DNA from: Lachnospiraceae bacterium UBA3638
GTDB lineage: Bacteria > Bacillota > Clostridia > Lachnospirales > Lachnospiraceae
Direction of reading: 5' to 3'
NCBI GenBank assembly: GCA_002373595.1
Contig: DFKT01000044.1
Span: forward strand, 1 to 29,761
DNA: 29,761 bases
Part shown: positions 8,058 through 27,014 of the stretch, piece after piece
Layout of the letters: each line of letters starts with the position of its first letter
How positions within the stretch are numbered: position 1 is the stretch's first letter
The notes under the pieces: model-generated
Database searches by the model: none
The model's input: the letters and a program-made list of their open reading frames with translations, nothing else
What the model was told of the DNA's origin: nothing
Made by a program: the position numbers and the translations under genes

Positions 8058-9953
8058 ATGGAACAGTCATTCCGGGAAAAACTCGAAGAGTTTATCACAG
8101 GTAATTCAGACATCAGAGAACTGTCAATGCCGCAGATCCAGTCCATGCACAGCGCGGATGATTACAGGGGACTCCTTCAGGAGAACTTCCTTAAGATCGG
8201 CGAGATCGCGGCGAGAAACAGAGCCATGCTGGCAGAGACGCTCTATCCCATGCTCGATTCGGGTGAGAAACTCACGGACGACCAGATAGAGGCGCTCGAA
8301 GCCTTTACCGGGAGCATAACGGATCCCGGCAAATTCGAGAATATCGATCTTACCCTTCTCGATAAGGTCGCTGACAGGCTGCTTCAGGATGCGAGAGCCA
8401 AGGAGGACACGGATTATCTCGTCAACCAGCTCTTCCTCAAGATAGTCTCGTCGTATGCGCTTGTCGCGCAGGTAAACAGATTGTTTGTATCGGACGATCT
8501 CTCCAAGCCTCATCAGAAAGAGGGACTTGCGGCTGCCGAAGAGCTGCTCGCATTCCTTAATAAGGACACCTTTGCGGGATTGTCGGAGAATTCGAGAAAT
8601 ACGGTCCTTGAGGGATCGAGATATTATACCGCGCTGTATGAGACGACTTATGCGGACGAGGAGAGCAGTACCGCCAACCTCGAAGCGCTCAGGAAGTCCT
8701 ATGATCTCTCGGAGGATCCTTTCTATCCTAATCTGACACCGGGATATGACTGGTATTATCATAAGATCCGCACTTTGAGCTCCATGGCGGACTGCCTTGA
8801 GTGCGGCAATATACACGGTTTTTCGGCTGAACAGTGCGAGAAGATCTACAGTGCGACTCAGAGACTGGAGAAACTCTGGAAGGAGAATGTTGCGCAGGGC
8901 GCAAGTCATATCTCCGAGTCCGAGTTAAAGCTCTACATAGCGCGCAGCAGCTATTACGCTGAGAAGATAAACCTTGCCGAATACAGAGAGAAGCTCCTGG
9001 AGATCTATGAGGCCAGAACGGTAGGCGCTTATGACGATGTTGCAGTAAGGATGAACCTCATGATCCCGCTCGAGTACCTGGTCACCTTCGGAGGCGATAA
9101 GCCGGGCGAGAGAGAGTATGACACACTCGAGTATCTCTACAGAGGCATAACGAGCTATGCACTGAACGCTCCCACCGGAGCCGATCATCCTCAGATACTC
9201 AACTGCTTCGCAAGGATCCTTGATTTCTTTATCGAGATTCCCGGAGGCATGACATTCGAGGAGCTCGGTCTCGACTGCATGGCAGCGCTTCATCAGCCCA
9301 CATATGTACATTCGCTCCTGGTTGCCAAGCTTTCGAGATGTCTGTGCACATACATGATAGAGGAGCATCCCGAGTATTTCCTCGGCCTTGAGGATTGCGA
9401 GACGATCGGAGATGTCAGAGCGAAGAAGAACCTGATCATAAGTGATGCTTTCCATGCAGGACTCTGCTACGATTTCGGAAAGCTCATGATGATAGATACC
9501 ATACACATCTACGGAAGAGGACTCTTTGATTCGGAGTTTGAACTTCTCAGGCTCCACCCCGTAATGGGAGCCGAGATGCTCTCCAGATATCCGTCCACTG
9601 ACAAGTTTGCCAATGTTGCGTGGGGACATCACCGCTGGTATAATCACCAGGGAGGATACCCTGAAGAGTTTGATGCGGTAGGTCTTCCCGAGAGAGTGCT
9701 CATCGACATAGTTGCCGTTGCGGACTGTCTCGACGCGGCTACGGAGTCTGTCGGAAGAAGCTACAGCAAGAGCAAGAGCGCCGAGGATGTCATAGGCGAG
9801 CTCGCAGCCGGAAGCGGAACCAGATACGCGCCTTATATCGTCAATCTCTTCGTGAGAGAGGATGTCAGAAAGGATGTCATCTACCTTCTCCAGGAGGGAA
9901 GACGACAGAACTACAGAAACACATACGTCAGACTTAGAGACGTAAGAAAATAA
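8058..9953 (+). CDS. HD-GYP-like protein with altered HD motif (YD), upstream of moxR
   Basis: A 631-residue soluble protein with no membrane segment. Residues 32 to about 400 are helical and not recognised. Residues 400-600 carry an HD-GYP-like domain. HD-GYP enzymes hydrolyse cyclic-di-GMP with a metal centre. Visible motif residues are H418, the DFGK that follows the HD position, HPxxG, H524-H525, GYP at 533-535 and ADCLDAA. The key His of the HD motif is replaced by Tyr (Y471-D472, codon TAC at 9468), so phosphodiesterase activity is doubtful. It aligns end to end with residues 537-1140 of the protein at 17102, where this position is His. ATG 8058 has TTGGAG upstream, and a TTG start at 8022 is rejected. 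It lies 19 bases before moxR and is probably co-transcribed. Confidence 0.85.
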   Translation: MEQSFREKLEEFITGNSDIRELSMPQIQSMHSADDYRGLLQENFLKIGEIAARNRAMLAETLYPMLDSGEKLTDDQIEALEAFTGSITDPGKFENIDLTLLDKVADRLLQDARAKEDTDYLVNQLFLKIVSSYALVAQVNRLFVSDDLSKPHQKEGLAAAEELLAFLNKDTFAGLSENSRNTVLEGSRYYTALYETTYADEESSTANLEALRKSYDLSEDPFYPNLTPGYDWYYHKIRTLSSMADCLECGNIHGFSAEQCEKIYSATQRLEKLWKENVAQGASHISESELKLYIARSSYYAEKINLAEYREKLLEIYEARTVGAYDDVAVRMNLMIPLEYLVTFGGDKPGEREYDTLEYLYRGITSYALNAPTGADHPQILNCFARILDFFIEIPGGMTFEELGLDCMAALHQPTYVHSLLVAKLSRCLCTYMIEEHPEYFLGLEDCETIGDVRAKKNLIISDAFHAGLCYDFGKLMMIDTIHIYGRGLFDSEFELLRLHPVMGAEMLSRYPSTDKFANVAWGHHRWYNHQGGYPEEFDAVGLPERVLIDIVAVADCLDAATESVGRSYSKSKSAEDVIGELAAGSGTRYAPYIVNLFVREDVRKDVIYLLQEGRRQNYRNTYVRLRDVRK

Positions 9954-9972: not shown

Positions 9973-10974
9973 ATGCCTTACAATCCGAATAATTCAACGA
10001 TATCCCGGGAGGATTTCGAGTACAGCCAGCAGATGATAGGAAAGCTCGCGAACTATTTCGAGAGCGTGGTCGTAGGACAGAAGAGCCTTGAGGCTTCGCT
10101 CCTTACGGCGATAATTGCGGACGGACACATCCTTATCGAGTCCGTACCCGGACTTGCCAAGACCACTGCAGCTAAAGCTATATCAGAGGCAGCAGGCGGA
10201 AAGTTCTCCAGGATTCAGTGTACGCCGGACCTTCTGCCCAGTGACATCATAGGAACTCAGATCTACAACCGTCAGACGGCCAGCTTTGATACCGTATTCG
10301 GTCCCGTATTTGCCAACTTTGTCCTCCTTGACGAGGTAAACAGATCCTCAGCCAAGACGCAGAGCGCTATGCTCGAGGCCATGCAGGAGCATCAGGTTAC
10401 GATAGGCGGAACCAGCTACAGCATGCCTGAGGACGTATTTATTGTAATAGCTACTCAGAACCCGATCGAGCAGGAGGGTACTTATCCCCTTTCTGAGGCT
10501 CAGACGGACAGATTCATGATAAAGGAAGTCATTACCTATCCTACCGCAGCTGATGAAGTAGAGGTCCTTAACAGGATAGAGGCAGATTCCTTCAAGAAAA
10601 AGCCTGCAGTAATGACGATCCAGGATGTCGACAAGATCCAGACTATCGCCGAGAAGGTATATGTCGACGACAGTATCAAGTGGTACATCTCTTCGATAGT
10701 TACCGGTACGCGTAATCCCGAGAGATGTCTCCCGCCCGAGATGGTAGGATATGTAAGGATGGGAGCCAGCCCCAGAGCTTCGATCGCATTCCTTCGCACG
10801 GCCAAGGCGACCGCACTCTTAAACGGCCGTACCTATGTAGTACCCGATGATGTCAAGCAGATGAGACATCTCGTACTCCGCCACCGTATAGCACTCAACT
10901 ATTCGGCTGTAGCGGACAAAGTATCCGTAGAAACGATCATTGATGCTATCACCGCATCGCTCAAGACACCCTGA
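9973..10974 (+). CDS. MoxR-family AAA+ ATPase
   Basis: A 333-residue AAA+ chaperone-like ATPase. MoxR proteins act with VWA-domain partners in assembling or activating complexes. The Walker A region reads SVPGLAKTT (residues 57-65), and Walker B is LLDEVNRS with D120 and E121. The sensor region includes ATQNPIEQEGTYPLSEAQTDRF, a strong MoxR signature. The first Gly of the usual GxPGxAKT loop is Ser here. A DUF58 gene starts 1 base after its stop, followed by VWA genes, which is the classic MoxR-DUF58-VWA order of aerotolerance-like (Bat) loci. Confidence 0.94.
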   Translation: MPYNPNNSTISREDFEYSQQMIGKLANYFESVVVGQKSLEASLLTAIIADGHILIESVPGLAKTTAAKAISEAAGGKFSRIQCTPDLLPSDIIGTQIYNRQTASFDTVFGPVFANFVLLDEVNRSSAKTQSAMLEAMQEHQVTIGGTSYSMPEDVFIVIATQNPIEQEGTYPLSEAQTDRFMIKEVITYPTAADEVEVLNRIEADSFKKKPAVMTIQDVDKIQTIAEKVYVDDSIKWYISSIVTGTRNPERCLPPEMVGYVRMGASPRASIAFLRTAKATALLNGRTYVVPDDVKQMRHLVLRHRIALNYSAVADKVSVETIIDAITASLKTP

Positions 10975-10975
10975 T

Positions 10976-11860
10976 ATGGAGTTTAATTACGATTATCTGG
11001 CAAAAATAAGCAGGGACGCGGTTCTTTATACCTCTCGCAAGACGACCAATATACTTGACGGGGGGTATAATTCCGTATACCGCGGCAAAAGCCTTGAATT
11101 CGACGATCTCAAGGAGTATTCTCAGGGCGATGACATAACGTCAATAGACTGGAAGTCGTCCTCCAGGAATGATAAACTCCTCGTGAGGAGATATATTGCC
11201 GAGAAAAAGCATAACGTACTTGTGATCGGTGACACCGGTCTGAAAATGGATGCAGATACGTCTGCCGGAGACTCCAAGGCGGATATTGCCTTAATGTCAT
11301 TAGGCGTTATAAGCTATCTTTTGGGCCGTCAGGGATCGGACGTGGGCTTTGCATGCCAGACTGCTACCGGCAGCAGGAACTCATCTTTCAGATCCGGAAG
11401 CGATCATATGGAAGAGCTCCTCAGAGTTTACGGCGAGGTTATGTTCGATACCGCGGAGCCGAATGTGAACAGTCTCATCATGAACACGCTTCAGTCGTTC
11501 CCTCTCCGCCGCATGGTTATCTTTGTGATCACTGATATTGCGGGTTTGCAGACTGTTGACAATGTGACATTATCTCGTATGACCGAGAGAAATGATGTTT
11601 ATTTCATTTGCATAGACGATGCTTTTATGACCGGCGGCAGGATCTACGACAGAGTAGGTAAAGAATACGTTAACAGGTTCCTTGCCGGATCATCGAAGCT
11701 CAGAAAAGCGGAAGTCGAGCAGAGGGCTTCCATAATGAACAGATTTAAGACGGACGCACTCCGCAACAGGGTCGTCGTCGGAAACGTCTCCACATTTGCA
11801 GACGTGATAGATATGATAATGGGACTTTTTGAAAGAGGACGCAGTGGAATTTTCGGTTAA
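10976..11860 (+). CDS. DUF58-domain protein of the MoxR/VWA cluster
   Basis: A 294-residue protein with the DUF58 signature at residues 36-60: RGKSLEFDDLKEY, then GDD, then IDWK, followed by a LLVRRYIAEK segment. The C-terminal half has a VWA-like layout (VLVIGDTG, then VIFVITDIAG), as usual for this family. No membrane segment is visible. ATG 10976 follows the moxR stop by one base, so translation is probably coupled. DUF58 proteins are regular partners of MoxR, but their biochemical role is not settled. Confidence 0.9.
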   Translation: MEFNYDYLAKISRDAVLYTSRKTTNILDGGYNSVYRGKSLEFDDLKEYSQGDDITSIDWKSSSRNDKLLVRRYIAEKKHNVLVIGDTGLKMDADTSAGDSKADIALMSLGVISYLLGRQGSDVGFACQTATGSRNSSFRSGSDHMEELLRVYGEVMFDTAEPNVNSLIMNTLQSFPLRRMVIFVITDIAGLQTVDNVTLSRMTERNDVYFICIDDAFMTGGRIYDRVGKEYVNRFLAGSSKLRKAEVEQRASIMNRFKTDALRNRVVVGNVSTFADVIDMIMGLFERGRSGIFG

Positions 11861-12317
11861 GATGCAGCCCGCGATGATGATGGGCATAGTATGGATAGTG
11901 GTTGGCGCGGTACTTCTCGGTATCGCGGTAGCTCTTTTTGTGCTCACTCGTCTCTTCGCCAAGGCTAGGCCGGTTAAAAAGGAGCGTCCGCCCGAGCCGA
12001 AGAAGCCGACGGACTACTTCTATATCAGAAGAGAGGCCATTCATTCCATAGACAAGATATCGCTTGACCTTAAGAAGAATAAGATAGATGTCAGGGAGAG
12101 TTATCAGAGACTTTCCATGACTATGAGGACCTTTGTCTCGGATATGACGGGACGCGAGGTAACCAATCTTACGCTCTCCGAGATAAAGGAGATGGGATTC
12201 GGTTCGCTCTCACAGGTCATTACAGGTTATTACGAGCCTGAATTTGCGCTCAAGACGACCGCGGACTTTGAGTCTTCGGCCGAAGTGGCAAGGAGGATGA
12301 TACAGACATGGAGTTGA
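11844..12317 (+). CDS. one-TM protein in the DUF4381-like position of the Bat-type cluster
   Basis: A 157-residue protein with one membrane helix near residues 11-34, a basic/proline linker, and a cytoplasmic helical domain of about 110 residues. GTG 11844 is chosen because AGAGGA lies 5-6 bases before it. ATG 11862 is the alternative. It overlaps the DUF58 gene by 17 bases and the next gene by 10. In proteobacterial MoxR/VWA loci a small membrane protein of the DUF4381 family sits at this place. The placement and the helix-rich tail (RTFVSDMTGREVTNLTLSEI) suggest an equivalent, but membership of DUF4381 is an inference. Confidence 0.75.
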   Translation: MEFSVKMQPAMMMGIVWIVVGAVLLGIAVALFVLTRLFAKARPVKKERPPEPKKPTDYFYIRREAIHSIDKISLDLKKNKIDVRESYQRLSMTMRTFVSDMTGREVTNLTLSEIKEMGFGSLSQVITGYYEPEFALKTTADFESSAEVARRMIQTWS

Positions 12318-13420
12318 TGCATCCTCAGATAATCTGGATAGGACTTCCCGTGCTGGCAGTGGTCATTGCAGCACTTCATTTCATACCCGCGAGGAAGAAA
12401 CCCGACTATATGGGCGGTATCAGGACCGGAGCCGCAGCCCTTACCAAGTCGCTTCCCATATATGAGAAGCTTCTTAAGAAGAGCAGAGTGCTCACTCTGC
12501 TGCTTGAGAGCTTTATCATCATAGCGGTGATCTCTTCCATGTTCCTCGCAGCCCGTCCCTATGAGGTAAAGAATATCAAGACCGGTGTCCAGAAGAGGGA
12601 CATCTTCCTCTGCATGGACGTATCGTATTCACTCTATCAGCTGAACTACGAGCTTACCGATTATCTCGAGCAGGTGGTAACCGAGCTTAAGGGCGACAGA
12701 TTCGGAGTTACCATATTCAATACTTCTTCTGTTGTATATGTTCCCATGACGGATGATTACGATTATGTCGTATCGAGGCTTGAGGAGCTTAAGACATATT
12801 TTGAGCTTCAGAAGGAATTCTATGACCTCCTCGATGGAAGAGAGTATCTGAGTGAGCTTTCGAGCGAGGAAGTAGATAAGTACTATGAGCTGGAAGCAAG
12901 GCTTGGATATATAGAAGCGGGAACGCTCGTAAATAACTATGAGAGAGGAAGCTCTCTTATCGGAGAAGGCCTTGCATCCTGTCTGTACAGTTTCCCGTCC
13001 ATCGGTGATTCATCCAGAACGAGATGTATCATCTTTGCAACGGATAATGCGAATTCCGCGGTCGTTCAGGAGGTTCCGCCTCTTGATGAAGCCTGCGAGC
13101 TTTGCAAGAAAAATGAAGTTACCGTATTCTCGATATTCCCTCACGAGGATGCACACTACTATCTGTATGATGATTCGGATTACGAGGGATTCCAGGATGA
13201 ACTCAGAGAATGTGTAGGTGTGACGGGAGGAGAGCTCTATGTCCAGAGTGATCAGGATACCGTTGCTTCCATAGTAGAGAGTATCAGAGCCCACAAGGCT
13301 ATGACGGTCAACGAGATTGTGACCGAGCAGCAGACGGATGTACCGTCCGTGCCTATGGCATTCATGCTGATAGGCATAGCAGGAGCGCTTTTCTCGGGAA
13401 TAGCGCTTAAGAGGAGATGA
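12308..13420 (+). CDS. VWA-domain membrane protein, BatA-like
   Basis: A 370-residue membrane-anchored von Willebrand A protein. Membrane segments lie near residues 8-26, 61-83 and 350-366, so the VWA domain sits between the second and third. The metal-binding MIDAS motif is complete as D104-V-S-Y-S108, and a later ATDNAN replaces the usual ATDG. An acidic insert (LLDGREYLSELSSEEVDKYY) between core strands is longer than I expect for BatA. The start ATG has GGAGG upstream and overlaps the previous gene. It most likely works with MoxR and the second VWA protein. Confidence 0.9.
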   Translation: MELMHPQIIWIGLPVLAVVIAALHFIPARKKPDYMGGIRTGAAALTKSLPIYEKLLKKSRVLTLLLESFIIIAVISSMFLAARPYEVKNIKTGVQKRDIFLCMDVSYSLYQLNYELTDYLEQVVTELKGDRFGVTIFNTSSVVYVPMTDDYDYVVSRLEELKTYFELQKEFYDLLDGREYLSELSSEEVDKYYELEARLGYIEAGTLVNNYERGSSLIGEGLASCLYSFPSIGDSSRTRCIIFATDNANSAVVQEVPPLDEACELCKKNEVTVFSIFPHEDAHYYLYDDSDYEGFQDELRECVGVTGGELYVQSDQDTVASIVESIRAHKAMTVNEIVTEQQTDVPSVPMAFMLIGIAGALFSGIALKRR

Positions 13421-13424
13421 CGCG

Positions 13425-14414
13425 ATGATGCACCTTAATCCGCTCATTCCCATGCCGATCCTTATCGCCGTATTTGCAGTTGCATTTATTGGTTTGGTGA
13501 CGGCTTGGATACTGAGCAGGGACAATCGCATAAAGAGCACATTTACACTGATCAGAGCGATAGCGATGCTGGCTCTTTCCTTTGTCATCGCGATCAGACC
13601 GATGAGAGAGGAAATGGGAGCGGATGTTCAGCTCAGCAACCTCGACATCCTCTTCGTATTGGATACCACTCTTTCCATGTGGGCGGAGGACTCACCCTCG
13701 GGAACGAGAATGGATGATGCGATAAAGGATATCAACAAGATCATGGATGACCTCGAAGGTGCCAACTTCGGACTCATCAGCTTCAGAAATACCGCAACGG
13801 TGCTTTCTCCTTTCACCCAGGATGAGGAGACCGTAAGGGGACTTCTCAGAAACAGCATAATCCGTCCCGTGCGAGACAATGTCAAGGGAAGTAAGATGGA
13901 CACCCCGTATTACGATCTTGAGAATATGCTCATCTCGTCCACGAGAAAAGAGAACCGTCAGACGATAGTATTTTTCCTCTCCGACGGAGAGATCACATCG
14001 AATGACCCTGTGCCGGATTATAAGGAACTCGGACAGTTCGTCGAAGGGGGTGCTGTACTCGGATACGGTACCGAAGCCGGAGGATATATGAAGGATGATT
14101 ACGGCATCATCTACGACAGGCAGACCTATGACAAGGCGGTATCCTGCATCGATGAGGACAATCTCAAGTCCATCGCAGAGGATCTCGGGATCAGATATGT
14201 AAGAAGAGAGAAGGGAAATCTCCTCACTCCCATAACCGCGGAAGTCAAGGCGAGCGGTTCGATGATCACCGAGAGAAGATTTGATTATGTGACATATCAG
14301 GATACATATTACAAGTATGTTCCGTATCTTGCGGGACTGCTGATACTGGAGCTTTTCATCCGTATCCGTGAGAATGCAAAGGTTCGCGTAAAGCATGGCA
14401 AAAAACAAAAATAA
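13425..14414 (+). CDS. VWA-domain membrane protein, BatB-like
   Basis: A 329-residue protein with two N-terminal membrane segments (about 8-30 and 40-58) and one near the C-terminus (about 303-320). The MIDAS motif is D80-T-T-L-S84, a DxTxS variant of DxSxS. A second motif reads VFFLSDGE. The C-terminal tail is basic and overlaps the start of the TPR gene by 20 bases. The order of two consecutive VWA genes followed by a TPR gene is that of batA-batB-batC clusters. Confidence 0.9.
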   Translation: MMHLNPLIPMPILIAVFAVAFIGLVTAWILSRDNRIKSTFTLIRAIAMLALSFVIAIRPMREEMGADVQLSNLDILFVLDTTLSMWAEDSPSGTRMDDAIKDINKIMDDLEGANFGLISFRNTATVLSPFTQDEETVRGLLRNSIIRPVRDNVKGSKMDTPYYDLENMLISSTRKENRQTIVFFLSDGEITSNDPVPDYKELGQFVEGGAVLGYGTEAGGYMKDDYGIIYDRQTYDKAVSCIDEDNLKSIAEDLGIRYVRREKGNLLTPITAEVKASGSMITERRFDYVTYQDTYYKYVPYLAGLLILELFIRIRENAKVRVKHGKKQK

Positions 14415-15243
14415 TTCAAAATCGAATAAGACTACAATACCCGCAGCGCTTTGGTTTACTTTCCTCATCGGAAGTATCATAGTGTTCGTGTGCGCTGTTT
14501 TCCTGATATCCCGATGGTTCCTTAATACATACTATGTAGCGGAGACCGGGAAGAACGTATACCACAAAAAACTGGAAGAGTCGCTCCTTCTCATCAATGT
14601 ACCGGATGCATATGTTCCGTATTACAACCTCGGAAACTATTACTACAACGAAGGTGACTATGAGAAGGCAATGGACTACTACTACCGCGCTATAGAAGCG
14701 GGTATCCCCTACGGCAAGGAATGTCCCGTCAAGGTCAACCTGGCGCTTTCCATGATAGGAGAGATAACTCAGGAGCAGTGGGATGCTTTCTTCGCAAGGA
14801 ATGAGTCCGAAGAGATGAAGAGTGCTGCGCAGGGCGTTACCAATACGCTGATGACTGCCAGAGGAATACTCATAGAGGACGGATGTGCGCACGATCAGGA
14901 TGAGGACGGACACAATGCACAGGCACAGCTCCTTAAAGACGAGATAGATGAGCTCCTGAAGGATGATCAGAATGATGACAACCAGGATCAGGATGAGAAT
15001 GACGATGAGAACCAGGATGATCAGCAGGATCAGAATAATAACGACGATCAGAACAATCAGTCCTCACAGCGTGAGAATCAGATAAGGGACGAGATACAGG
15101 ATCACAAGGATGAGGCTCAGAAGGAAAGAGCCGAGGACCGCGACCAGTATGAGAGATACTACGGCGATGAGCTGGGACTTAACGAAGGCGGCGGTGAAGG
15201 CGGCGAAGGCTCCGGCGGGGACGACGACACTAAGTTTTGGTAG
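14395..15243 (+). CDS. TPR membrane protein with Asp/Asn/Gln-rich tail, BatC-like
   Basis: A 282-residue protein. A lysine/asparagine-rich start is followed by one membrane helix (about 16-38) and at least one TPR unit near residues 72-103 (YYNLGNYYYNEGDYEKAMDY). Residues 189-222 are almost only Asp, Asn, Gln and Glu. The end is glycine-rich and acidic and finishes TKFW. BatC proteins also join TPRs to a charged, low-complexity tail. ATG 14395 lies inside the previous gene, so expression is probably coupled. The tail is likely disordered, and its role is unknown. Confidence 0.85.
   Translation: MAKNKNNSKSNKTTIPAALWFTFLIGSIIVFVCAVFLISRWFLNTYYVAETGKNVYHKKLEESLLLINVPDAYVPYYNLGNYYYNEGDYEKAMDYYYRAIEAGIPYGKECPVKVNLALSMIGEITQEQWDAFFARNESEEMKSAAQGVTNTLMTARGILIEDGCAHDQDEDGHNAQAQLLKDEIDELLKDDQNDDNQDQDENDDENQDDQQDQNNNDDQNNQSSQRENQIRDEIQDHKDEAQKERAEDRDQYERYYGDELGLNEGGGEGGEGSGGDDDTKFW
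14961..15060 (+). repeat. in-frame low-complexity tract encoding Asp/Asn/Gln
   Basis: About 100 bases built from imperfect copies of CAGGATGA and GATCAGAA. It encodes the acidic/amide tail of the TPR protein. The short unit could slip during replication and change tail length between strains. Confidence 0.75.
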
Positions 15244-15349: not shown

Positions 15350-16153
15350 GTGATCAAGGAAATACGCATAAAATCTCTGGATGAGCTGCTTCCCCTTTTT
15401 ACCGAGCAGGAATACAGAGAGGATCTCCACAGAAACAGGAGCTCATTTATCTACAGGGGCGTATCGGATGCCGGTTTCCCCATGCGTACGAGCCTGTCCA
15501 GAAACTGCGGCAGCAAGCAGAAGATACTTGAGCCGGCTATCCTTGAGAATTTTGCAAAATACGCTGTCTTAAGCGACCCTACCGTGGCGAGCAGCGTATG
15601 GAGACAGATGATACTCGGTCAGCACAATGGCTTGCCTACGAGACTTCTCGATTGGACGCATTCCGCTCTTGTGGGACTCCATTTCGCAGTGTCCGAGGAC
15701 AATCTCGAGGATATGGAAGCGCACGACTGTGCTGTTTGGAGGATCGATATGGCGGAGATGGTATCCATCCTGCCCGAGAAATACCGTGAAGTGGTAAACA
15801 AGAAACAGTCGACCATCTTCTCGGTCGATATGCTTAAGGAAATAACCGGCAACAGCCTGGAGACCTACGACCGTGATATGGGCAAGGATGCGATGGTCAT
15901 CATCGAGCCGCCCTCGGTTAATTCCAGGATTGTCAATCAGTATTCTTTCTTCTCTGTAGTCCCTATGGAGATGGAGAATATCGAGGATTTCATGAATGAC
16001 CACACCGAGAAGACCGTAAAGTACGTCATAGGCAAAGAACTCAGATGGAGAGTGCGAGATATGCTCGATCAGCTCAATATGAGCGAGAGAATAGTATATC
16101 CCGGACTCGAGGGACTCTCCAAATGGATCGCCAGACACTACTATGTAAAGTAA
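15350..16153 (+). CDS. FRG-domain protein
   Basis: A 267-residue soluble protein. The FRG signature FIYRG is at residues 33-37, and the second block GQHNGLPTRLLDWTHSALVG is near residues 90-109. Both are the conserved core of the FRG family. The biochemical activity of most FRG proteins is not established, and they occur alone or with defence and toxin-like genes. GTG 15350 is preceded by AAAGGAGG, which sets the start. It lies 106 bases after the TPR gene across a structured spacer, so it may share the Bat-type transcript. It ends at a bidirectional terminator. Confidence 0.88.
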   Translation: MIKEIRIKSLDELLPLFTEQEYREDLHRNRSSFIYRGVSDAGFPMRTSLSRNCGSKQKILEPAILENFAKYAVLSDPTVASSVWRQMILGQHNGLPTRLLDWTHSALVGLHFAVSEDNLEDMEAHDCAVWRIDMAEMVSILPEKYREVVNKKQSTIFSVDMLKEITGNSLETYDRDMGKDAMVIIEPPSVNSRIVNQYSFFSVVPMEMENIEDFMNDHTEKTVKYVIGKELRWRVRDMLDQLNMSERIVYPGLEGLSKWIARHYYVK

Positions 16154-17070: not shown

Positions 17071-17093
17071 TCATATAAAAAGTGTGATATACT
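17064..17093 (+). promoter_or_regulatory. possible divergent promoter of the M32/HD-GYP gene
   Basis: TATACT at 17088-17093 with a TG nearby is the best -10 box. The -35 candidate (TAGTCA, 17064-17069, 18-base spacer) is poor and overlaps the -35 box of the minus-strand promoter. Initiation near 17100 would leave almost no leader before ATG 17102. Confidence 0.35.
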
Positions 17094-17101
17094 CTGATAT
17101 C

Positions 17102-20100
17102 ATGATCGATAAAACTCTGGAAAAAGTCAAAAAAGTACTCGAAGAGTATGATATCTACGAATACGCATACAGCATAATCGATTTTGACCGCCAGACGGTC
17201 TGCCCCGACAAGGGAATGACCGAATCCGGCGAGACTTGTGCGCGTCTTGAAGAGGTGATCTTCAATATCAAAAAGGATCCTTCTTTTATCGAAGACATAA
17301 ATTATCTCTATGAAAACAGAAATGAGCTGGGTGAATTCGACAGGGCAGCGATAGAGAGGCTGAGACTTGAATTCGTTCGCCGCAAGAATATCACTCCCGA
17401 GATGGCCGCAGACTCCGAGAGAATAAAGAATGCCGCATGGATAGCCTGGAATGAGGCGAGGGCTGCGGATGATTTCAGGATCTTTGAGAAACCTCTCGAA
17501 AAACTTGTAGAAAACGAAAAGGCAAGGGTGATGCTCTGGGATACGACTGATGATCCGCAGACAGCAAAGCTCTCTGCATATGAGCGTATGCTCGATGAGC
17601 ACGAGGACGGGATGAGACAGAGCGATATAGACGCCCTGTTTGAGCCGGCGGCACAGCGTATTTCCGAGCTTATCAGACATATCAAAGAAAGCCCCGTTAT
17701 GATCAGGAGGGATTTCCTTTCGAGACGTGTAACGGGAGATCAGCAGCGTCAGATGACGGTCTATCTTCTCAGCCTCCTGGGATTTGATTTCTCGAGGGGG
17801 ACGTATACCACATCCGAGCACCCCTTCATGAACCGCGTGGGACGCGATGATATACGTGTCACGACACATTTCTATGACGACAATTTCATATCCGGTATGT
17901 ACTCGATCATTCATGAGTGCGGACATGCGCTCTTTGAACAGCTCCAGCCCAGGGAGAATCAGAATGCTCATCTTGATGTAAAGACCATGGGCCAGCACGA
18001 ATCGGTCTCCAGGATGTATGAGAATATCATAGGCAGATCTAAGGACTTCATCGGTCTCATTTATCCCAAGGTCTGCGAGATCTTTCCTCAGGTCATGTAT
18101 GATGTTACCGCCGAGGATCTCTATGAGGCAGTCAATATTGCAGAGCCTTCTCTTATAAGGACTGAGGCTGACGAGCTGACTTATACTCTCCATATCGTTA
18201 TTCGTTATGAGATAGAAAAGAGACTCATAGACGGAGATCTCAAAGTATCCGAAATACCCGCTCTATGGAAGAAACTCTATAAGGACTATCTTGGCATAGA
18301 GCCGTCGGGAGACTTTGACGGTGCGTTGCAGGATGTGCACTGGACCTCTGATTTTGGCTATTTCCCCGCATATGCGCTGGGCAATTTCTACGGTGCTATG
18401 TATTACAACAGGATGTGCGGGGAGATAGATGTACCCGGTCTTATCAGAGCCGGAGACTTCACTGCCATCAATAAATGGATGAGCGACAATGTCTTCGTGC
18501 GCGCGGACAGGCTCACACCCCGCGAATGGATAAAGGATATAACGGGCAGGGATCTTACGGCCGATGATTTCCTTGATTATCTCGATAAGAAGTATTCGGA
18601 AGTATATATGCTCGCAAAGCAGACCGATGAGAATGCGAGATTTGAAGGATATGTGAGGAGCATGGCGAGGGTCAGGCTTTTGTCGTCACCTCTTCTCGAC
18701 AACCTTGGGTCTGCGGAGGATTACGGACGCCTTCTGATCGAGAATTTCATGGATATCAGAGGTATAGCGGGAGATAACCGCGATGTCATGAGAGAGTTCT
18801 TCGAGCCGATACTTGACTCGGACGATGAACTCCCTGATGAGATGATCGAAGCCATTCGTGAGATGAATGCGGGACTGCAGGATGCGTTCAAGGCATCTCA
18901 GCTCGATGTCCCCATGGTCTCTCTTTTCTCCGACAGACTTAAGAAGGATGCGATCAAAAAAGGAGACGAGGCTTATCTCATAAAACAGCTCGACAGCGAG
19001 ATCGAGAATTGCTATTTCATGATAAATATTTCCACGAGGATCTTCGGATACCCTCAGGTGGCCGATCACTTCAGAGAGAAGGGCATCAAGGCTTTTAATG
19101 AGATCATCGGATACCTCGAAAAAGACAGATTTGAGAAACTGGACGAGGAATGCCGGGAGATCGTTATTATCAATTCCAGATACGGACAGCTCCTCTATGA
19201 GGATATGTCAAAGGTACCTGAGGAGAGAAATGAATGGCGCCTTAAGGTGCTCAGGAGATCCGAAGAAGTATCGAACGACCCGTGGTATCGCGAGCGCGTG
19301 CCCGAGATGGACTGGAACCGTCAAAAGTACAAGATCCATGAGTATTTCTCAATGATGGGAGTGGATGACAATGCGATAGGCCTCACCCGTAAGCAGCTCG
19401 AAGAAACCGCCACGCATGCCGATGCTCTCATGAAGATGTATGAGCAGGATCCCGATATCGTGCTAAAATACACATATCCGGAGTACATCCAAAAGATACA
19501 TGCGATCAACCATCATAACCTCGGTGAGATAAGCAATACAGAGTTCATAGAGAGGATCGAGAAGCTCCATGAGAGCGCTGATCCCATGGATTATACAGAC
19601 AAGGGTATCGACAAAAATGTATCCATGCCCATAGAGATGCTCCTCGCCTATGCCAAGACAGACTACGGCGAGAGAGGCAAGGATCACATCAGGAACCTGT
19701 ACAGATCGGTAATATCCTATGCATTCCATATGCCCAAGATGGGGCTTTTGGGATCACTTCTCGGCGATTATGCCGTGATCCTGGATAACTATATAGAGGT
19801 GCCGGGAAGCCTGACTTTTGAGGAGATGGGGATGCAGTCGTTTGCGGCTTTCCATCCTCCGACATATGTCCACTCAAATATGGTCGCGCATATAAGCTCA
19901 TGCCTTGCAGAGAACCTCATCCGCAGACGCCCCGATCTTTTTGTCGGAATATGCGGATGCGACAGCGAGGCGGAAGTGACTGCTGCGGCACAGAGAATAG
20001 CGGATTTTGTATATCATGCGGCGCTGTGCCACGATTTCGGAAAGCTCTGCATCATGGATACCATATTCATCTACGGACGTAAGCTTCTCGATCATGAATT

Positions 20101-20524
20101 CGAGACGATCAAATACCATCCGCTCATAGGTTACAACATGCTTAAAAAGCATGAATCCACTGCGGAGTATGCGGATATAGCGCTGGGACATCATATCTGG
20201 TACGACGGGACCCGGGGATATCCGGATGAGTTCGATATCAGGAACAGCCTGTACAAGACGGTGATAGATATCGTCGAATGTGCGGACTGCATGGATGCAG
20301 CGACAGATACGGTGGGAAGGAGCTATACCAGTGGCAAGACTCTCGAGGAGTTTACCGCGGAAGTAAGAGCCGCCGCCGGCACCAGATATGCCCCGTATAT
20401 AGCGGATCTGATCGAAGAGGAGGCTGTTGCGGACGATCTTTCATATCTGCTCAGCGAGGGACGCAAGGAGATCTATCGCAAGACTTATATGCTGCTTAAA
20501 TCCGTTCAGGAAAAGACTGAATAA
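17102..20524 (+). CDS. M32 metallocarboxypeptidase fused to an HD-GYP-like protein
   Basis: A 1140-residue soluble fusion. Residues 1 to about 520 are a complete M32 (Taq-type) carboxypeptidase, a zinc enzyme trimming C-terminal residues. It has HECGH at 271-275, HES at 299-301, then RTEADELTYTLHI and DFGYFPAYALGN. Residues 537-1140 align end to end with the separate HD-GYP-like protein at 8058. Here the HD motif is intact (H977-D978), with H1030-H1031, GYP at 1039-1041 and ADCMDAA, so metal-dependent cyclic-di-GMP hydrolysis is possible. ATG 17102 fits the M32 N-terminus, although no Shine-Dalgarno site precedes it. The frame is continuous, with no stop or shift at the joint. No terminator is seen before the next promoter. 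I do not know of this fusion as a described architecture. Confidence 0.9.
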   Translation: MIDKTLEKVKKVLEEYDIYEYAYSIIDFDRQTVCPDKGMTESGETCARLEEVIFNIKKDPSFIEDINYLYENRNELGEFDRAAIERLRLEFVRRKNITPEMAADSERIKNAAWIAWNEARAADDFRIFEKPLEKLVENEKARVMLWDTTDDPQTAKLSAYERMLDEHEDGMRQSDIDALFEPAAQRISELIRHIKESPVMIRRDFLSRRVTGDQQRQMTVYLLSLLGFDFSRGTYTTSEHPFMNRVGRDDIRVTTHFYDDNFISGMYSIIHECGHALFEQLQPRENQNAHLDVKTMGQHESVSRMYENIIGRSKDFIGLIYPKVCEIFPQVMYDVTAEDLYEAVNIAEPSLIRTEADELTYTLHIVIRYEIEKRLIDGDLKVSEIPALWKKLYKDYLGIEPSGDFDGALQDVHWTSDFGYFPAYALGNFYGAMYYNRMCGEIDVPGLIRAGDFTAINKWMSDNVFVRADRLTPREWIKDITGRDLTADDFLDYLDKKYSEVYMLAKQTDENARFEGYVRSMARVRLLSSPLLDNLGSAEDYGRLLIENFMDIRGIAGDNRDVMREFFEPILDSDDELPDEMIEAIREMNAGLQDAFKASQLDVPMVSLFSDRLKKDAIKKGDEAYLIKQLDSEIENCYFMINISTRIFGYPQVADHFREKGIKAFNEIIGYLEKDRFEKLDEECREIVIINSRYGQLLYEDMSKVPEERNEWRLKVLRRSEEVSNDPWYRERVPEMDWNRQKYKIHEYFSMMGVDDNAIGLTRKQLEETATHADALMKMYEQDPDIVLKYTYPEYIQKIHAINHHNLGEISNTEFIERIEKLHESADPMDYTDKGIDKNVSMPIEMLLAYAKTDYGERGKDHIRNLYRSVISYAFHMPKMGLLGSLLGDYAVILDNYIEVPGSLTFEEMGMQSFAAFHPPTYVHSNMVAHISSCLAENLIRRRPDLFVGICGCDSEAEVTAAAQRIADFVYHAALCHDFGKLCIMDTIFIYGRKLLDHEFETIKYHPLIGYNMLKKHESTAEYADIALGHHIWYDGTRGYPDEFDIRNSLYKTVIDIVECADCMDAATDTVGRSYTSGKTLEEFTAEVRAAAGTRYAPYIADLIEEEAVADDLSYLLSEGRKEIYRKTYMLLKSVQEKTE

Positions 20525-25148: not shown

Positions 25149-27014
25149 ATGAAGGGTAATAAGAGAACAGTTGCACTTTGCACTTCGAGAGTATTTGACC
25201 CACAGACGCACTGTTTTATCGAAAAACTTAATGAGCGTGTAAAAAAGCATAAAGCCAGATTGTGGATCTATGCTCTTAATGCGGATGTTTATTGGGATGA
25301 TGAGCAGTTGTCGGCTGAGGCTGACGTATTTGACTATGTCAGATATGAATATATAGACATACTCATCTATATGGATGAGAAGATCAAGAGTCATCGTATT
25401 GCCAATAATATAATAAGCAATGCGCTTAAGAAGAAGATCCCGGTCATAGTGATTGACGGAAACTATGACAATGCCATATGCGTAAATTTCGATTACGCAA
25501 AAGGATTCGAAATCCTGATGAACCATCTCATCGAAGAGCACGGAGTGGATGATTTTCATCTGGTTTCAGGCATAAAGGGAAATACATTCTCGGATGAGAG
25601 AGAAGAAGTCTTTAAGAGAGTGCTCGGCGAGCATGAGATGCCATTTAACGAAGACATGATAAGCTATGGCGGATTCTGGGCAACACCGGCGCGTGAAGCG
25701 GCAGAGCGGCTTATACGCGAGGGGAGACTTCCCAGGGCGATAGTGTGTGCCAATGACATCATGGCTATCAACGTCTGTGATGTCTTGAGAGAATCCGGAA
25801 TAAAGATCCCTAAGGATGTGATCGTTACGGGATATGACGGATTTGATGAAGTATATATTTCCAACCCTGCGATCACGACGGTTTCATGTGATATAGGATT
25901 ACTTGCCGATGAGGCGGGAAGGGTTATAGACTCGATCCTTCTTGGAAACGAGGTTACAAATGGAGAACGCGGGGTCATCCCTGAACTCGTTCCTAATGAA
26001 TCCTGTGGCTGCTTGAAATGCGAAGACAGGGGAAACAAAGTGGCTGTGGATCGTTTCAATACGACTGTCTACAGATACCAGGATGACATCAGAAATATCC
26101 ATAATACAACGGGAAAGATGATGGTTGCCGATTCCAGGGATAAAGCCATCAGATGTATACCCCTCGATTTTGCAAAGTACATGTTCTGCGTAGTTAAGAA
26201 AGAGGTATTCTGCAAAGAAAAGAATTTCTTCCTGAACGATCTGGATGAAGAAGGATATCTGCTTGTTTATGATTCGGCAAAGCAGGATCCGGATATAAAG
26301 CCTTTTGAACTCGGAGAGATAGCTCCGAGGTTAGAAGAAATGTCGCAGGCAGGATATCCTCTGATCTTCCAGGCACTCGATTATATGGGCAAGTCTTTTG
26401 GATATGCATGCTACTACTATCAGACATATGACATAACCGAGTACGCCAAATCAGCCAGTGTAACGGATATGATAAGCACGGGCATAGGCGGATATGTTAA
26501 TATGCGCTATCAGCAGTATCTGCTAACCAAAGTCGAGGAAGTATATAAGGTGGACGCTCTGACAGGCCTTTATAACAGACTGGCTTTCAGAGAGGCGTTT
26601 GAAAGTATGAAGAGCAATCCTGTCAATCACGGTCATGACCTGACGGTTATCATGGCGGATCTTAACAGGCTTAAGGTTATAAATGATACACTTGGTCATG
26701 AAGCGGGAGATACAGCCATCGCAGCAGTCGCAACTGCGCTGAAAGAGAGTGTTCCGAATACTGCTGCATGTGTAAGGTTCGGCGGAGATGAATTGCTCGC
26801 ATTTATCCCCGGTGTGTGTGATACTGATGCTATACGATCGAGTATCAATGCGATCCTTGCAAAGAGATCCGAAGAGGAAGGATTTGGAATATCAGCAAGC
26901 TGTGGAGTCTATAGAACAGTTCTGACACCTGAACTTACATTTGAAGAGGCCCTTCGCAACGTTGATAAACAGATGTATATCGAGAAAGAAAAATCAAGAG
27001 TTGCGAGATCGTAG
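25149..27014 (+). CDS. LacI-type sensor domain fused to GGDEF diguanylate cyclase
   Basis: A 621-residue cytoplasmic protein. Residues 1 to about 280 are a periplasmic-binding-protein fold like the effector domain of LacI repressors (IPKDVIVTGYDGFDEVYISN and following), but with no helix-turn-helix in front. A cysteine cluster CGCLKC (286-291) follows, then an uncharacterised middle region. From about residue 460 a GGDEF domain makes cyclic-di-GMP. Its active site reads GGDEL (545-549), a tolerated variant, with DALTGLYNR and DLNRLKVINDTLGHEAGD intact. No RxxD inhibitory site precedes it. It probably couples a small ligand to cyclic-di-GMP synthesis. It lies 14 bases before queH. Confidence 0.9.
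   Translation: MKGNKRTVALCTSRVFDPQTHCFIEKLNERVKKHKARLWIYALNADVYWDDEQLSAEADVFDYVRYEYIDILIYMDEKIKSHRIANNIISNALKKKIPVIVIDGNYDNAICVNFDYAKGFEILMNHLIEEHGVDDFHLVSGIKGNTFSDEREEVFKRVLGEHEMPFNEDMISYGGFWATPAREAAERLIREGRLPRAIVCANDIMAINVCDVLRESGIKIPKDVIVTGYDGFDEVYISNPAITTVSCDIGLLADEAGRVIDSILLGNEVTNGERGVIPELVPNESCGCLKCEDRGNKVAVDRFNTTVYRYQDDIRNIHNTTGKMMVADSRDKAIRCIPLDFAKYMFCVVKKEVFCKEKNFFLNDLDEEGYLLVYDSAKQDPDIKPFELGEIAPRLEEMSQAGYPLIFQALDYMGKSFGYACYYYQTYDITEYAKSASVTDMISTGIGGYVNMRYQQYLLTKVEEVYKVDALTGLYNRLAFREAFESMKSNPVNHGHDLTVIMADLNRLKVINDTLGHEAGDTAIAAVATALKESVPNTAACVRFGGDELLAFIPGVCDTDAIRSSINAILAKRSEEEGFGISASCGVYRTVLTPELTFEEALRNVDKQMYIEKEKSRVARS

Follow-up and report, generated by a model that had tools for sequence, protein, structure and literature searches.

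An M32 carboxypeptidase fused to an HD-GYP-like module in Lachnospiraceae: a possible peptide input to cyclic di-GMP signaling

Introduction

Why would a carboxypeptidase be joined to a signaling enzyme in a single polypeptide? The question is raised by a gene of Lachnospiraceae bacterium UBA3638, found in positions 1 to 29,761 of contig DFKT01000044.1 (assembly GCA_002373595.1); this whole stretch of 29,761 nucleotides is called the window here. The gene encodes a carboxypeptidase of the M32 family, a helical-repeat domain, and a domain that resembles the HD-GYP phosphodiesterases of cyclic di-GMP (c-di-GMP). M32 carboxypeptidases (the carboxypeptidase Taq family; B. subtilis BsuCP, 3hq2) are normally stand-alone proteins of about 500 amino acids (aa), whereas here the M32 domain is followed by a C-terminal signaling module of 635 aa. 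In general, little is known of what regulates the large number of c-di-GMP enzymes, and a literature search covering open-licence papers found no description of an M32-HD-GYP protein. The original prediction for this locus, made from the sequence, had offered two directions: the peptidase as a sensor or localizer for the phosphodiesterase, or the nucleotide signal as the controller of the peptidase. In this study, we describe the fusion and its relatives and weigh what joins the two enzymes.

Results

The gene is a single open frame, with a GTG at 17084 and an ATG at 17102, that runs to 20524 (Table 1). Together with Pfam matches in both enzyme domains, this frame confirmed the original reading of one uninterrupted gene with a full M32 enzyme followed by an HD-GYP-like module; the two enzymes had been recognized correctly, but the helical-repeat domain of about 390 aa between them had been overlooked. 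Among homologues (the best 120 of 148 listed, classed with profiles built in this analysis), the M32-HD junction was found in 29 of 120, with 40 to 49% identity for members of at least 1134 aa, and the fusion protein's own sequence cluster holds six sequences from two contigs. Given this recurrence, the M32-HD fusion is genuine, and chance or an assembly accident is excluded. An AlphaFold2 model of the chain as a whole had a mean predicted local distance difference test score (pLDDT) of 93.2 and a predicted template modeling score (pTM) of 0.83.

The N-terminal domain has the M32 fold and matched the Pfam model Peptidase_M32 (PF02074) over aa 9 to 498 (E value 1.3e-142; 476.4 bits against a cutoff of 25.1; profile positions 2 to 489 of 489). 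Its motifs begin at HPF 240, DIRVT 250, HECGH 271, HESV 299, IRTEAD 352, GALQDVHW 407, and GYFPAYALG 419, and we take E300 of the HES motif to be the third zinc ligand. The fusion protein thus contains the M32 motifs HPF, DXRXT, HEXXH, HES, IRXXAD, and GXXQDXHW, with the motif list taken from PMC7918520. The HESQ motif of the family reads HESV in the fusion, and likewise in the stand-alone M32 proteins of loci L190 and L191. The premise that M32 enzymes normally stand alone was borne out in the window's class, where 47 M32 matches occurred in 46 of 391 genomes and only the window's open frame exceeded 571 aa. The window's genome has a single M32 gene.

The C-terminal domain matched the Pfam model HD (PF01966) over aa 922 to 1047 (4.6e-07; 30.6 bits against a cutoff of 22). 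For HD_5, it scored 27.1 in the whole chain, just below the cutoff of 27.2, and 28.2 when the HD module was taken alone. We compared its residues with those of PmGH, as given in PMC4159591, using alignments to 4mcw and to ten other HD-GYP-type proteins from the genomes analyzed. The HD-GYP residues H924, H977/D978, K981, H1006, H1030/H1031, GYP 1039-1041, and D1062 could be located. The seven PmGH ligands that are common to both HD-GYP groups (H189, H221, D222, H250, H276, H277, and D305) correspond to H924, H977, D978, H1006, H1030, H1031, and D1062, and equivalents of PmGH K225, D308, R314, and GYP are also present. H918 and H924 are invariant in 92 aligned relatives, and the stretch from H924 to the HD motif is longer than in PmGH-type HD-GYPs. 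The best sequence and fold matches of the module are c-di-GMP HD-GYPs, and its second-best PDB sequence match is the cyclic GMP-AMP (cGAMP) phosphodiesterase 5z7c.

For the helical-repeat domain, a close known system is that of the Rap and NprR (RRNPP) peptide-receptor TPR proteins. No TPR model was among the 25 of 51 families listed for 66 relatives, a non-listing that does not show misfit, and the same applies to other folds not listed among the fold matches. Used as the sole query, this part returned nothing at 0.001, though relatives that hold it are known, so this search is uninformative; no solved structure was matched to it by sequence at E 10.

M32 and the HD module are joined in one chain in 38 of the 120 listed homologues. 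The layouts among the 120 are HD alone (67), tandem HD (8), M32-HD (29), HD-HD-M32 (7), HD-M32-HD (2), and M32 without an HD module (7). Contig loci (80 of 99 retained; by title mostly ruminant-gut Lachnospiraceae metagenome-assembled genomes [MAGs]) add an HD-M32 order with an M32 of another lineage (L118), separate genes for M32, HD module, and HD module with gaps of 9 and 3 bp (L138), and neighboring M32 and HD genes with a 14-bp gap and a frame-broken HD module (L062). The original prediction hinged on relatives not always carrying the halves as separate genes, and fusions do recur. In 397 sampled genomes of the window's family (three candidates scored per genome), the HD module was found at E 1e-60 in 10; six of these also have an M32, fused or adjacent in four (G000, G100, G112, and G307) and on a different contig in G211 and G351. 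A scan of genome contigs for close relatives with a single protein query found none, and 0 of 94 plasmid records spanned 80% of the query, with 20 listed records matching the M32 half only.

Both parts were also seen with other partners. The seven listed M32 proteins without an HD module (P0053, P0077, P0057, P0059, P0081, P0100, and P0113) are joined to MsrA, GNAT, GIY-YIG, PF09719, and PF11187 proteins, and the M32 of this branch seems fusion-prone. In P0120, the HD module is joined to a BirA-like biotin ligase/repressor, and at L124:2398-5892 it is joined to an N-terminal half that contains a GGDEF domain (1.5e-26). Linked genes of some MAGs are interrupted, by an in-frame TAG in the M32 part of L052 and by frame breaks in L053, L059, L062, and L076, through either sequencing error or decay.

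We built an M32 tree of 82 rows, with 14 of the best-scoring stand-alone M32 loci and 20 added ones, and an LG+G4 quick tree of HD modules with a midpoint root, in which 38 of 65 stand-alone modules were sampled; near-duplicate, cut, or frame-broken loci were left out of both. The 40 HD-linked M32s except L118 clustered together (SH-like approximate likelihood ratio test [SH-aLRT] support of 93). Forcing L118 into this group was rejected by the approximately unbiased test (p-AU 7e-73; 39 chosen rows); the group minus L118 was not rejected (p 0.325), yet it was unrecovered in the free 39-row tree. The HD modules split into two large subfamilies. Subfamily A contains the window fusion, the other M32-HD proteins, the third part of HD-M32-HD, the first HD of L138, and many stand-alone modules, and subfamily B contains the tandems, HD-HD-M32, the first part of HD-M32-HD, the second HD of L138, L118, the window's paralogue, and some stand-alone modules. 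A single clade of M32-linked HDs was rejected (p-AU 6e-100; 56 rows). Given that the L118 M32 lies outside the main group and that the M32-linked HDs are not one clade, HD modules from either subfamily have become partners of M32, and at least two of the joinings are independent.

The two active sites differ in how they decay. Zinc sites were counted without P0036 and P0038 (short or gapped M32 part), and HD sites without P0046 (short HD part). Every one of the 37 linked proteins that could be assessed has at least one intact HD site. All nine checked HD residues were kept in 28/28 M32-HD proteins, in the second HD of 7/7 HD-HD-M32 proteins, and in both HDs of 2/2 HD-M32-HD proteins; the first HD of HD-HD-M32 was intact in 2/7. 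When proteins and loci were pooled, duplicates included, 40 of 42 M32-HD rows had an intact HD and the remaining two (L001 and L059) were cut off, and the 23 rows of tandem forms show 16 decayed first HDs and no decayed second HD. The M32 zinc residues could be assessed in 36 protein rows. They are intact in 31 and lost in five: the second His is Tyr in P0031, and in P0032 to P0035 the Glu is Ala and the second His is Leu. These five form one clade in the M32 tree (support 95), and P0031 falls with zinc-keeping fusions in the HD tree (support 97); because the trees place P0031 differently, either one or two losses are possible. Synonymous sites are nearly saturated, with a proportion of nonsynonymous differences (pN) of 0.11 to 0.49 in all three parts of linked proteins. 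The zinc-less M32 domain is still under purifying selection.

Of 15 genomes with linked M32s, the 13 zinc-keepers have no further M32 gene, counting the two matches in G781 as pieces of one gene and the second in G788 as a 36-position match below the cutoff; the 13 include L052 (in-frame stop) and L053 and L076 (frame breaks). In each of the two zinc-less genomes examined (L058 and L078), a stand-alone M32 that keeps HEXXH and all listed motifs is present as well (509 and 513 aa). One M32 each was found in G112 and G307.

As a separate observation, among the tandem protein rows (P0037, P0039 to P0043, P0045, P0049, and HD-HD-M32), the first HD copy is usually dead (13/15) and the second intact (15/15), a pattern that resembles a pseudo-enzyme regulator. 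Both copies are kept in four tandem loci (L089, L098, L105, and L127).

Genes for c-di-GMP enzymes and receivers lie near several linked loci. A REC-GGDEF gene stands 9 and 29 bp downstream of the zinc-less fusions L058 and L078, an HD-GYP-type gene precedes L048, and a receiver protein is encoded behind L050. The linked genes at L056 and L076 share a set of homologous upstream neighbors that encode a hybrid histidine kinase (Pfam applied at L056), a receiver protein, and an HD_5/HD protein. At L052, L055, L057, and L059 (Pfam applied to members at L055 and L057 only), the neighbors include MatE and CorC-type genes and, at all four, ferredoxin oxidoreductase subunits; three of these loci also have a gene of the glutamate dehydrogenase family. 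The window's genome (1.94 Mb) has 30 GGDEF and 16 EAL matches. The window also encodes a stand-alone HD-module paralogue, which has Tyr for a metal-binding His, is the sole one of 135 stand-alone rows (125 distinct) without an intact set, and ends 19 bp upstream of a MoxR gene. The product of 25149-27014 is possibly a sugar-sensing diguanylate cyclase.

Table 1. Features of the fusion gene and of other genes in the window
Feature	Position	Strand	Details
Fusion gene	17102..20524	+	1140 aa; M32 carboxypeptidase, helical-repeat domain, HD-GYP-like domain
M32 carboxypeptidase domain	17102..18616	+	aa 1-505
HECGH zinc motif	17912..17926	+	aa 271-275
HES motif including E300	17996..18004	+	aa 299-301; E300 invariant in 27 aligned sequences
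Helical-repeat (TPR-like) domain, counted to HD module	18635..19801	+	aa 512-900
HD-GYP-like domain	19814..20521	+	aa 905-1140
HPPTYVH	19853..19873	+	aa 918-924; H924 = PmGH H189; H918 for D183 and P920 for E185 (by spacing)
HDFGK	20030..20044	+	aa 977-981
H1006	20117..20119	+	= PmGH H250
HHIWYDGTRGYP, metal-binding HH and GYP loop	20189..20224	+	aa 1030-1041; consensus exceeded by one residue
Stand-alone HD-module paralogue, subfamily B	8058..9953	+	36-37% identity; YDFGK; Pfam; tree
MoxR AAA, DUF58, two vWA, and TPR protein in a row	9973-15243		directly behind HD paralogue
FRG-domain protein	15350-16153		
Sugar-binding-protein-like sensor with GGDEF	25149..27014	+	predicted diguanylate cyclase

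Discussion

A functional link between M32 and the HD-GYP-like module is well supported, given that the two occur in four fusion orders and as unfused adjacent genes, and that a second joining was independent. We favor, at about an even chance and as the most economical explanation, a protein with two functions, whose c-di-GMP phosphodiesterase activity would be set by the engagement of peptides in its M32 domain. Its support is the anatomy, the recurrence, and the context, and conservation and the asymmetry of decay are also shown; the activities, the substrate, the allostery, and the direction are what we infer. The protein would be cytosolic, judging by eye from the start of its sequence. 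Its M32 domain is predicted to be an intact zinc carboxypeptidase that trims C-terminal residues off peptides and is probably the organism's only M32 enzyme, and the HD-GYP-like domain is the putative c-di-GMP phosphodiesterase. The helical-repeat domain would pass the state of the former to the latter: a peptide bound or turned over in the M32 cleft would alter phosphodiesterase activity, and peptide (nitrogen) status would enter the c-di-GMP pool. A metabolic enzyme would thereby serve as the input domain of a signaling enzyme while usually still being a working enzyme; with another M32 present, the fused copy would be free to lose catalysis and could retain its regulatory role.

Between the two directions of the original prediction, we lean toward the peptidase as sensor and consider control of the peptidase by c-di-GMP less likely, because at least one HD site is intact in all assessable linked proteins, the zinc site is lost in some, and both zinc-less genomes examined have a spare intact M32. 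Known systems offer a partial parallel. A globin-coupled HD-GYP is reportedly found in V. fluvialis, and the fusion resembles it and PmGH in layout, with the input domain at the N terminus and the phosphodiesterase at the C terminus; unlike in either, the N-terminal part here is a metallopeptidase with an intact site and not a classical sensor. For PmGH, PMC4159591 describes an N-terminal GAF sensory domain.

Several observations weigh against our favored explanation. Most listed HD modules lack an M32 (67 alone and 8 tandem of 120), so M32 is not a general input. Neighboring genes differ between linked loci. A second M32 was found in 0 of 14 zinc-keeping genomes (the window's included) versus 2 of 2 zinc-less ones (1 in 120 by Fisher's test, by hand); both zinc-less genomes are of one lineage and count as one event, and the absences are provisional given that MAGs are incomplete (82% for the window's genome). 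The relative conservation of the M32 and HD core is mixed and follows no simple rule: identity is higher in the HD core than in M32 for the zinc-less pair L058/L078 (82 versus 57%) and for both pairs with the window's protein (60 and 59% versus 52 and 51%), and M32 is the more similar part in L055/L059 (74 versus 68%) and L055/L057 (64 versus 57%). The scores of the structural model apply to the whole chain and need not hold for the relative placement of its domains. Finally, the HD module departs from the HD-GYP phosphodiesterases PmGH (4mcw) and PA4781 (4r8z). By spacing, Pro920 takes the place of the eighth PmGH ligand, E185 (E/D group; Y/F in the other group), and His918 that of the conserved Asp183. 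HHIWYDGTRGYP deviates from the HHExxDGxGYP consensus in lacking the glutamate and being one residue longer in the GYP loop, with GYP retained; the stretch preceding RxY is longer by two residues, and that from H924 to the HD motif is also extended. The claim that all metal-site residues are present thus stands for seven of the eight PmGH ligands and fails for the last, a position described as variable in PMC4159591.

Given the lost HHE glutamate and the longer GYP loop, the domain is best placed in the HD superfamily, with a predicted HD-GYP-like function, as a divergent sister subfamily and not a plain HD-GYP member. Because of this divergence, c-di-GMP is a likely and not a certain substrate, and the replacement of E185 and D183, the lost glutamate, and the longer GYP loop and pre-RxY stretch mean that substrate or rate may differ from those of canonical HD-GYPs.

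The alternative that survives best, although we think it unlikely, is co-localization only, in which a tether keeps together two enzymes that belong to one pathway or place, with no allostery between them, for instance because they share dimer contacts or a partner. Both parts fuse readily, given that each is found with unrelated partners: M32 with the MsrA, GNAT, GIY-YIG, PF09719, and PF11187 proteins, and the HD module with the biotin-ligase protein. The M32/HD partnership, however, recurs in several orders and arose at least twice independently, and a zinc-less M32 domain is kept under purifying selection; both points speak against this alternative.

A one-chain peptide circuit is a bolder and rather improbable variant. 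The helical repeat would be a Rap/NprR-like receptor and the HD-GYP-like domain its c-di-GMP output, the carboxypeptidase would trim the same peptide and so reset or tune the signal, and the dead peptidase of Butyrivibrio-like fusions would be a pseudo-enzyme peptide-binding domain. If this were true, peptides inside the cell, whether nutritional or pheromonal, would feed straight into c-di-GMP.

The reverse arrangement, with the HD-GYP-like domain as the input whose binding or turnover of c-di-GMP switches the carboxypeptidase, seems to us quite improbable. The zinc site is intact in most linked proteins, and M32 shows the highest conservation of any part in two of the five pairs compared, as that arrangement would have it; complete site decay, however, hits M32 and never the last HD, and the HD catalytic residues are kept even though mere binding would not need them. 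We hold it distinctly improbable that the HD module has a different cyclic dinucleotide, or a nucleotide, as its substrate: the deviations from PmGH (His for D183, Pro for E185, and the longer GYP loop) and the match to 5z7c point that way, but c-di-GMP HD-GYPs are what the module matches best in both sequence and fold, the module is fused to GGDEF in L124, and linked genes lie adjacent to GGDEF genes. An assembly chimera or a decaying fusion, which the in-frame stop or frame breaks in L052, L053, L059, L062, and L076 might suggest and which the original prediction had already discounted, has virtually no chance, given that the same junction recurs in 29 M32-HD proteins of many contigs, under purifying selection and with a confident full-chain model.

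In summary, each half of the protein is in or near a known family, and what is new is their combination and its repeated re-assembly. That relatives join both parts repeatedly and in different orders suggests that peptide processing and c-di-GMP are coupled. The fusion places a probable phosphodiesterase in the same chain as an enzyme of known chemistry that is its likely input, which makes the question of whether peptides or amino acid supply set c-di-GMP assayable on one purified protein, and its relatives provide a natural comparison series with a live M32, a dead M32, no M32, M32 on either side, and separate genes. Such a protein would give a likely function to an uncharacterized HD-GYP-like subfamily of gut bacteria and would couple peptide catabolism to c-di-GMP signaling in gut Lachnospiraceae.

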